Shown here: piece by piece, positions 55,431 to 56,931 of the stretch
Position numbering within the stretch: the stretch's first letter is position 1
Layout of the letters: every line of letters begins with the position of its first letter
Source: Tissierellales bacterium
Lineage (GTDB): Bacteria > Bacillota > Clostridia > Tissierellales > Sedimentibacteraceae
Assembly (NCBI GenBank): GCA_018433765.1
Contig: JAHDQO010000002.1
Coordinates: 215,874 to 279,873, forward strand
DNA: 64,000 bases
Direction of reading: 5' to 3'
Notes under the pieces: generated by a model
What the model was told of the DNA's origin: nothing
Databases searched by the model: none
What the model saw: only the letters and a program-made list of their open reading frames with translations
Position numbers and translations under genes: made by a program

Positions 55431-55922
55431 TCATAGTTTAAAATTTTTAGCATATTTTAAAGAATGCGCATGACATATTGCAACTGCAAGACCATCAGCA
55501 GCATCATCAGGTTTAGGAATTTTATCAAGTTTTAAAATAATTTTAACCATCTCTTGTATCTGTCTTTTTTGTGCTCGTCCATAACCTACTATTCCTTGTT
55601 TTATCTGCAGTGGAGTATATTCATATATAGGTATTTGACTATTTACTGCTGCAAGTATATGAACTCCTCTAGCTTGTCCTACACTTATTGCTGTTTTAAC
55701 ATTTTTATTAAAAAATAATTCTTCAATTGATACAGCATCAGGTTTATATTTTTCAAAAAGTTTTATATATGAGTCATATATAATTTTTAACCTAGTTGGA
55801 AAATCAATATCACTCTCTGTTTCAACAGTACCGTATTCTAGCATTTTAAATTTATTACCTACATAATCTATTACTCCATACCCAGATATAGCCAATCCTG
55901 GATCCATTCCAAATATTAACAT
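55431..55922 (-). CDS. ruvC: Holliday junction resolvase RuvC
   Basis: RuvC cuts four-way junctions. The 163-aa RNase H-fold nuclease has its acidic residues in FGMDPGLAISGYG, SIEELFFNKN and DDAADGLAVAICH, with the GRAQKRQIQEMV helix between. AAGGTG precedes the ATG. The three ruv genes are contiguous, with yebC upstream, as in many bacteria. Confidence 0.96.
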   Translation of the reverse strand: MLIFGMDPGLAISGYGVIDYVGNKFKMLEYGTVETESDIDFPTRLKIIYDSYIKLFEKYKPDAVSIEELFFNKNVKTAISVGQARGVHILAAVNSQIPIYEYTPLQIKQGIVGYGRAQKRQIQEMVKIILKLDKIPKPDDAADGLAVAICHAHSLKYAKNFKL

Positions 55923-55990: not shown

Positions 55991-56012
55991 AAAAAAATCC
56001 CTCTTGATAGAG
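55991..56012 (-). terminator. Terminator downstream of the inserted element (yebC transcript)
   Basis: On the minus strand CCCTCT-ATCA-AGAGGG is followed by ATTTTTTT. This copy retains the T-run. The upstream copy at 56169-56184 has the same stem but no T-run, consistent with one terminator split by an insertion. Confidence 0.8.
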
Positions 56013-56185
56013 GGTCAGATTGTTGACAAAGTCAACAAGATGATAGGCTTTTGAGAAACTTGAAGTTCGAGGCGTACCGAAAGCGAGTAAGCGGAGCGTA
56101 TATAAAAATACGTGAGCATTCTCGATTGAGGCAACAACGATGAAATTCGGGTTTGTCAATAGCCTAATCCCTCTTGATAGAGGGT
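55996..56185 (-). repeat. Structured element inserted in the yebC terminator, flanked by 20-bp direct repeats
   Basis: The identical 20-mer AATCCCTCTTGATAGAGGGT is at 55996-56015 and 56166-56185; each copy is itself a hairpin (CCCTCT-TGAT-AGAGGG). Between them is about 150 bp: a TTGTTGAC-AAA-GTCAACAA hairpin (56020-56038 region), then imperfect terminal inverted repeats (56045-56069 with 56141-56165, both ends reading AGGCTnTTGAnAAAC inward) around a CGTAT/ATACG hairpin. The copy at 55996 has the T-run of a normal terminator on the minus strand. The arrangement looks like a small mobile element with a long target duplication. The middle is visibly richer in GC than the surroundings. Confidence 0.75.
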
Positions 56186-56187
56186 GT

Positions 56188-56931
56188 TTATATATCAAAA
56201 TCATCCGGTATTTCCCAATTGTGATAAATTTCTTGCACATCATCATTATCTTCTAAAGCATCTATAAGTTTAGCTATAGTTTTCGTATCTTCTTCATTAT
56301 CAATTTTTGTTGTAGTTTGAGGTATATATAATACTTCTCCATTTACATTATTATATCCTGAACTTTTAATTCCTTTTAATACTGCCATAAAGTTTTCAGG
56401 TGGAGTAATTACTTCAAATATATCCTCTTCATTTTTTAAATCATCAGCTCCAACTTCAAGTACTGTTAGCATTAAATCTTCTTCATTAATTTGACCATCA
56501 TTTTTAATAGCAATAACACCTTTTCTTTCAAATAAGTAAGATACACATCCTGTTGATCCTAAATTACCGTTATACTTTGAAAAGTAGTGTCTTATATCAG
56601 CAGCAGTTCTATTTTTATTGTCAGTAAGACATTGAACCATAAATGCCGTTCCACAAGGTCCATATCCCTCATATGTAATAGATTCAAAATTATTTTCAGA
56701 AGCAGAGCCTGCTCCCTTTTTAATTGCTCTATCTATATTATCATTTGGCATGTTTTCAGCTTTTGCTTTTTCTATTGCATTAGCTAGCGATGCATTGTAT
56801 TCAGGATCTGTTCCACCCTCTTTTACTGCAACTGTTATTGCCCTAGCTAATTTTGTAAATATTTTAGCTTTTTTTGCGTCTTGTCTTCCTTTCCTATGTT
56901 TAGTATTAGCCCATTTTGAATGTCCAGCCAT
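56188..56931 (-). CDS. yebC: YebC/PmpR family protein
   Basis: This 247-aa protein begins with the family signature MAGHSKWANTKHRKGRQDAKK and has YEGYGPCGTAFMVQCLTDNKNRTAADIRH and GCVSYLFERKGV. YebC proteins were named as transcription regulators; recent work on relatives links some to translation of proline-rich stretches. AGGAGG precedes the ATG. The 3' end runs into a terminator that has been interrupted by a structured insertion. Confidence 0.96.
   Translation of the reverse strand: MAGHSKWANTKHRKGRQDAKKAKIFTKLARAITVAVKEGGTDPEYNASLANAIEKAKAENMPNDNIDRAIKKGAGSASENNFESITYEGYGPCGTAFMVQCLTDNKNRTAADIRHYFSKYNGNLGSTGCVSYLFERKGVIAIKNDGQINEEDLMLTVLEVGADDLKNEEDIFEVITPPENFMAVLKGIKSSGYNNVNGEVLYIPQTTTKIDNEEDTKTIAKLIDALEDNDDVQEIYHNWEIPDDFDI

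Follow-up and report, generated by a model that had tools for sequence, protein, structure and literature searches.

The closest described systems are insertion sequences (IS) that act on inverted repeats. IS1630 of Mycoplasma fermentans is a known precedent for the duplication of inverted repeats, going by the title of Calcutt, Lavrrar and Wise (1999), cited in PMC7648426. IS1272 and TnSha1, which belong to the IS1182 family, insert into hairpins, often terminators, without sequence consensus, and have a tandemly duplicated left end (PMC5678879, PMC4923244). The model for IS1272 considers three outcomes, namely replacement (a), duplication of the whole stem-loop (b) and duplication of the loop (c) (PMC5678879). 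On the other hand, bacterial miniature inverted-repeat transposable elements (MITEs) such as RUP, BOX, ERIC and MITEAba12 are short, non-coding and intergenic, with terminal inverted repeats (TIRs) and a stable fold; their target duplications are generally short, and duplication of a whole terminator is not described in the literature surveyed (PMC10969869). Here we analyse a stretch of 64,000 nucleotides from a Tissierellales bacterium (GCA_018433765.1, contig JAHDQO010000002.1, positions 215,874 to 279,873; the window from now on), where a 151-bp element lies between yebC and ruvC, flanked by two copies of a terminator stem-loop. This element is very probably a non-autonomous transposon (MITE) that targets any terminator-type DNA stem-loop whatever its sequence and is mobilised in trans by a related IS.

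The element shares with IS1272 and TnSha1 the hairpin targets without consensus and the tandem left end. However, those elements remove the stem-loop, IS1272 making no duplication, whereas here the stem-loop is duplicated whole. IS1630 is autonomous and carries an IS30 transposase, whereas the element of the window is a non-coding clostridial MITE with other termini, in a genome where no IS30-type gene was found. It has the features usually asked of a MITE (less than 500 bp, non-coding, high copy number, TIRs and target duplication), the duplication being unusual in that it comprises a whole hairpin of variable length.

Copies of the element and their duplicated hairpins

All results are computational, and the count of independent insertions relies on the distinctness of the hairpins. 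When the organism's own genome was searched, 42 matches were obtained, of which 40 are long and, apart from the query itself, 94-99% identical over the core. A flanking duplication was scored in 28 of the 31 copies with both flanks, versus 0 of 930 wrongly combined left and right flank pairs, and an additional duplication with a small indel (L021) was recognised by eye, which gives 29/31. The duplicated stem-loop has a different sequence at every locus and stands complete on either side of the element; hence, the target seems to be a shape and not a sequence. The first-pass annotation had set as a test the presence of numerous copies beside or within terminator hairpins, with a matching flanking repeat for every copy, and this is indeed the picture obtained.

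The duplications measure 18-27 bp (one case truncated by the scoring, at 14), starting with A in 25/28 and finishing with T in 27/28. Stem pairing begins at the duplication ends, with stems of at least 6 bp in 89% of the cases versus 2% of shuffles. Each duplication stops at the base of the stem, so that its length is set by that of the hairpin. It is extremely improbable that the double terminator comes from segmental duplication or an assembly error with no transposition involved: some contigs do end inside copies, but the 151-bp element is framed by a different doubled hairpin at each of about 30 loci, and further assemblies show the pattern too, among them that of G054, a genome in one contig. 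Concerning the contig breaks, four pairs were matched by their hairpin (C29-C32, C1-C33, C28-C11 and C34-C18). Regarding the genomic context, a gene 3' end adjoins 28 of the 31 copies, often at 16-60 bp; convergent sites outnumber divergent ones (9 versus 3), and copies are oriented either with or against the upstream gene.

Shorter and longer forms were also found. A 224-bp variant with about 74 additional bases (L113, G000:C13:349054-349277) lies between duplicated hairpins. Scraps of the element ends, 4 to 28 bp long, follow hairpins at L114 and L115 (both ~300-560), at L045 (1501) and in the right flanks of L011 and L014, and the left-end modules of L114 form a tandem pair. In Sedimentibacter hydroxybenzoicus (G012), the right flanks of L055, L059 and L065 also show a hairpin followed by a short scrap. 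Hairpins with such pieces suggest remnants of decay or excision and a repeated use of hairpins.

At the yebC site (Table 1), the 20-mers at 55996-56015 and 56166-56185 are identical, and each one forms a GC-rich 6-bp stem. The copies, aligned in register, start with CAGATTGTTGACAAAGTC and end with TTTGTCAATAGCCTR, and the element ends set in this way leave a target duplication of 19 bp. The splitting of the yebC terminator proposed in the first-pass annotation is therefore maintained, with the duplicated length corrected from 20 bp. The TIRs are CAGATTGTTGACAAA and, from the opposite end, YAGGCTATTGACAAA, with 11-12 of 15 bases in common. The outer inverted repeats described earlier as AGGCTnTTGAnAAAC do exist, but they pair the right end with the inner second left end at 56044, the outermost left end being a separate 28-bp module. 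The small central hairpin was correctly recognised, and so was the lack of a plausible coding frame: the only open reading frame (ORF) spanning the element (96 amino acids, minus strand) has its frame shared with the terminators.

Table 1. Features of the yebC-ruvC site (positions in the window)
Feature	Position	Strand	Basis or remark
yebC (YebC/PmpR family)	56188..56931	minus	ORF; name from the first-pass annotation and the sequence; gene with the split terminator
ruvC	55431..55922	minus	ORF; name from the first-pass annotation and the sequence; next downstream of yebC, same strand
Left target duplication ATCCCTCTTGATAGAGGGT, entire terminator stem-loop	55997..56015		Boundaries from comparison of about 40 copies
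Mobile element (MITE, very probable), 151 bp, CAGATTG...AGCCTA	56016..56166	plus	About 40 genomic copies
Left-end module, 28-bp palindromic unit containing TIR CAGATTGTTGACAAA	56016..56043	plus	Matches Sedimentibacter IS left end
Stem-loop TTGTTGACAAAGTCAACAA of the left-end module	56020-56038	plus	
Second, inner left end TAGGCTTTTGAGAAACTTGAAGTTC, one of the two arms of the long inner inverted repeat	56044..56068	plus	Inverted-repeat pair 80% complementary
Central small hairpin GCGTAT...ATACGT, tip of the long stem	56096..56113	plus	Compensatory changes between genera (helix 6)
Right end, reading inward YAGGCTATTGACAAACCCG	56142..56166	minus	Matches Sedimentibacter IS right end CAGGTTATTGACAAACCCG
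Right target duplication ATCCCTCTTGATAGAGGGT, same sequence as the left copy	56167..56185		

A terminator scan gave two oppositely facing calls at the site (shuffled expectation 0.1). The minus-strand call (56014-55999) is followed by a strong T-run, ATTTTTTT, and the T-run of the plus-strand call (56169-56184) is weak. Both 20-mers are thus terminator stems, as was first noted, and on the yebC (minus) strand a good T-run is confined to the left copy; the single T-run of that description needs to be completed with the weak plus-strand one of the other copy. The yebC transcript therefore meets, in turn, a stem-loop lacking a T-run, the element, and a stem-loop with a T-run, and the left copy should be the working yebC terminator.

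Regarding other classes of repeats, the MITE-like label given in the first-pass annotation agrees with a short, non-coding element with TIRs, target duplication and ends common to a larger IS. The REP-like (repetitive extragenic palindromic) label has to be abandoned due to the presence of true TIRs and a target duplication, and REP/BIME elements moved by a Y1 transposase (IS200/IS605 type) were rejected as candidates on the same grounds. A terminator-associated group IIC intron, which would have ribozyme domains and insert 3' of the stem with no duplication, was discarded as well (no Rfam match, and a duplication is present), as was a known Rfam RNA family (no covariance-model match).

Related elements and the conserved fold

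Elements with the same plan, 149-151 bp in length, are present in S. hydroxybenzoicus DSM 7310, in G005, in a Sedimentibacter metagenome-assembled genome (G018) and in G054, which belongs to another family, all of them between duplicated hairpins. In these four genomes, the whole hairpin is duplicated in 19 of the 21 junction pairs assessed (one locus counted twice). S. saalensis (G021) is filled with other MITEs that have YAGACTATTGACAAA ends and hairpin flanks. The element and its ends had no match in viral contigs, plasmids or phages.

Some side observations concern these relatives. In G054, loci L124 and L133 (G054:C1:3428560-3428890) form a hairpin-element-hairpin-element-hairpin array in which one stem-loop appears three times. 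The G021 loci L159 and L161-L166 constitute a distinct MITE family, with the YAGACTATTGACAAA ends and a GTCATCCTGAACGATAGTGAAGGATCTCAT core, located beside hairpins. Moreover, the motif GCGGAGCGTATAnnnnATACGTGAGCATTG from the centre of the element is also contained in repeats whose ends differ, at L125 ~1501, L129 ~1501 and L132 ~1501 (G106); one GCGGAGCGTATAnnnnATACGTGAGCATTG repeat stands upstream of a 16S ribosomal RNA gene, and no Rfam family matched it.

The 201-nt stretch folds below its shuffles by 6.8 standard deviations on the minus strand and 8.8 on the plus strand. In addition, a single fold is supported by 12 copies from five genomes, with changes on both sides at 17 of 44 pairs (9.3 in shuffled alignments) and a covariation score of 0.322, compared with 0.149 for shuffled and at most 0.093 for slid controls. 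The fold is kept across genera, and the selected form may be either DNA or RNA. In the own-genome copies, the departures from Watson-Crick pairing comprise 10 distinct pair states with G-U and 2 with A-C, which hints weakly that the plus strand is under selection, whereas an alignment free of RNA-pairing bias contains 42 G-U versus 29 A-C. This strand test is therefore suggestive within the own genome and not between species. The covariation analysis proposed in the first-pass annotation as a test for a conserved RNA thus confirmed the fold, the two forms remaining unseparated by the equivocal G-U and A-C counts.

That annotation also offered as an alternative a structured RNA between two terminators. 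In its full form, this would be a conserved non-coding RNA (a 3' untranslated region or a small RNA) under selection for its fold as RNA, its copies having been dispersed by transposition or duplication. The strong covariation and the G-U excess of the own-genome copies speak for it, and an RNA role is possible as an added property. Nevertheless, it leaves the locus-specific hairpin duplications, the dispersed copies and the two orientations unexplained; the palindromic ends are expected of a MITE anyway; the unbiased counts do not favour it; and Rfam gave no match at gathering scores, only weak ones at chance level. Hence, we consider such an RNA quite unlikely as the explanation of the locus.

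Probable parent element and family of the transposase

Larger IS with corresponding ends were found in S. hydroxybenzoicus and in the Sedimentibacter metagenome-assembled genome, where 14 left ends abut a hairpin and a matching hairpin is present at 7 right ends. In S. hydroxybenzoicus, twelve contigs break about 75 bp into an element starting with CAGACTGCTGACAAAGTCAG, each one preceded by a different complete stem-loop, and right ends on other contigs (...AACCCGCTAATTTTTAGCGGGTTTGTCAATAACCTGA) are followed by a stem-loop that matches one left end; the hairpins join the contigs C6-C15, C15-C32, C34-C38, C32-C16 and C29-C3. In G018, two left ends extend into a leader hairpin, which is followed by a promoter-like stretch, an apparent ribosome-binding site (AGGAG) and an ATG, and both right ends carry matching hairpins. 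Furthermore, the ends of this IS and those of the window MITE agree even in their left/right asymmetry (the left TIR is followed by GTCA, the right one by CCCG). Judging by these sequences, whole hairpins are duplicated in the same manner by an IS-like element that has an apparent gene start and is probably the parent of the MITE, whose mobilising transposase it may encode.

Several points weigh against a hairpin-targeting MITE moved in this way. Two own-genome copies lack a matching hairpin pair: L026 (L121, G000:C13:214181) has a different hairpin at each end, a pattern that recombination of one copy with another would produce, and L036 is truncated on its left side. Between such ends, no intact transposase was found in the readable assemblies, where the IS interior is missing. 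The IS30-type HTH_38 domain (PF13936) is absent from the own genome (G000) and from S. hydroxybenzoicus, although collapsed IS copies could hide one. Finally, of an IS1182-type transposase (DDE_Tnp_1_6/DUF772), the own genome has only an 80-amino-acid remnant.

This remnant (L071, G000:C13:421139-421294) is located near GAGACTGTGTCAAAA repeats, whose ends are unlike those of the MITE. Searches for TIR pairs in G012, G054 and G021 returned MITEs and collapsed IS ends and no complete IS; the left-end pattern, searched across genome contigs, appeared only at Sedimentibacter contig ends, with no transposase; and a class-wide end pattern gave three matches, 0/3 with a transposase.

It is nearly an even chance that the mobilising transposase belongs to the IS1182 family (IS1272-like) and follows the whole-stem-loop duplication of pathway b (PMC5678879). 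In fact, AGGCTGCTGAAAAAGTC, the right TIR of the MITE in S. hydroxybenzoicus, is identical to a 17-bp part of the right TIR in an IS1182 element from G032, and IS1182 copies from Clostridia, Bacilli and viral contigs (L134, L136, L269-L272 and others) sit in terminator hairpins and have a similar TIR, GAGGCYRCTGAAAAAGTC, to which the targets and tandem left-end copies of IS1272 can be added. However, the window MITE end TTGACAAAC differs from this 17-bp identity, no IS1182 gene was read between MITE-like ends, and IS1272 deletes its target. Moreover, the 16 IS1182-family copies read here, from several genomes, plasmids and viral contigs, do not insert at the stem base: nearly all lie in the apical loop and have duplicated 8-10 bp that span the loop of a palindrome, terminator-like or other (loop-inserting loci L134, L136, L137, L139, L140, L141, L143, L144, L145, L262, L265 and L269-L272; the hairpin of L135 is weak), which is the pattern of pathway c. 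An IS1182 of the L078 type was rejected as parent due to the different geometry of its 8-9 bp loop duplication, and the remnant was all that could be considered as an IS1182 partner in the own genome.

An IS30-family transposase, like that of IS1630, seems unlikely. The duplications of IS1630 are reportedly 19-26 bp long, near the range observed here, but the HTH_38 domain is lacking as indicated above, the examinable IS30-like loci of the relatives do not have such ends and hairpin flanks, and no IS30 partner was found in the own genome. We give a similarly small chance to a parent IS of an undescribed transposase group that would read DNA secondary structure and cut both stem-loop feet at a distance set by the hairpin, combined with a MITE that would also have a function at the RNA level, whose maintenance by selection is suggested by the compensatory changes across genera.

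Mechanism and biological meaning

For the MITE reading, the following mechanism can be proposed. The transposase supplied in trans by the related IS would recognise the hairpin as DNA, in cruciform or single-stranded form, and attach the element by its 3' ends to the extruded stem-loop, one end at each of its opposite feet, where the cuts would lie. This route corresponds to pathway b of the IS1272 model (PMC5678879). Gap repair would then leave a complete hairpin on either side, which would make the duplication as long as the hairpin (18-27 bp). The old terminator being bidirectional, its A-rich flank would stay with one copy and its T-rich flank with the other; one terminator per direction would thus remain, and the insertion would be nearly harmless.

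Whole-inverted-repeat duplication (IS1630) and hairpin targeting (IS1272) are precedented. As far as the limited open-access literature shows, the new aspects are a MITE family at about 40 sites in one genome, a duplication that follows hairpin length at many sites, a fold kept across genera and a probable clostridial parent IS. In about 30 natural insertions that retain both junctions, the length of the duplication tracks that of the hairpin. A transposase with a fixed stagger cannot give such a length, and structure-directed target choice is therefore directly testable. Moreover, these findings indicate that a mobile element can occupy terminators as a near-neutral niche, leaving a working terminator on each side. 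Taken together with the loop-inserting IS1182 copies, the MITE of the window suggests that the reading of hairpin shape is widespread among such elements, with at least three outcomes: the stem-loop duplicated whole, the loop duplicated, or the stem-loop removed.
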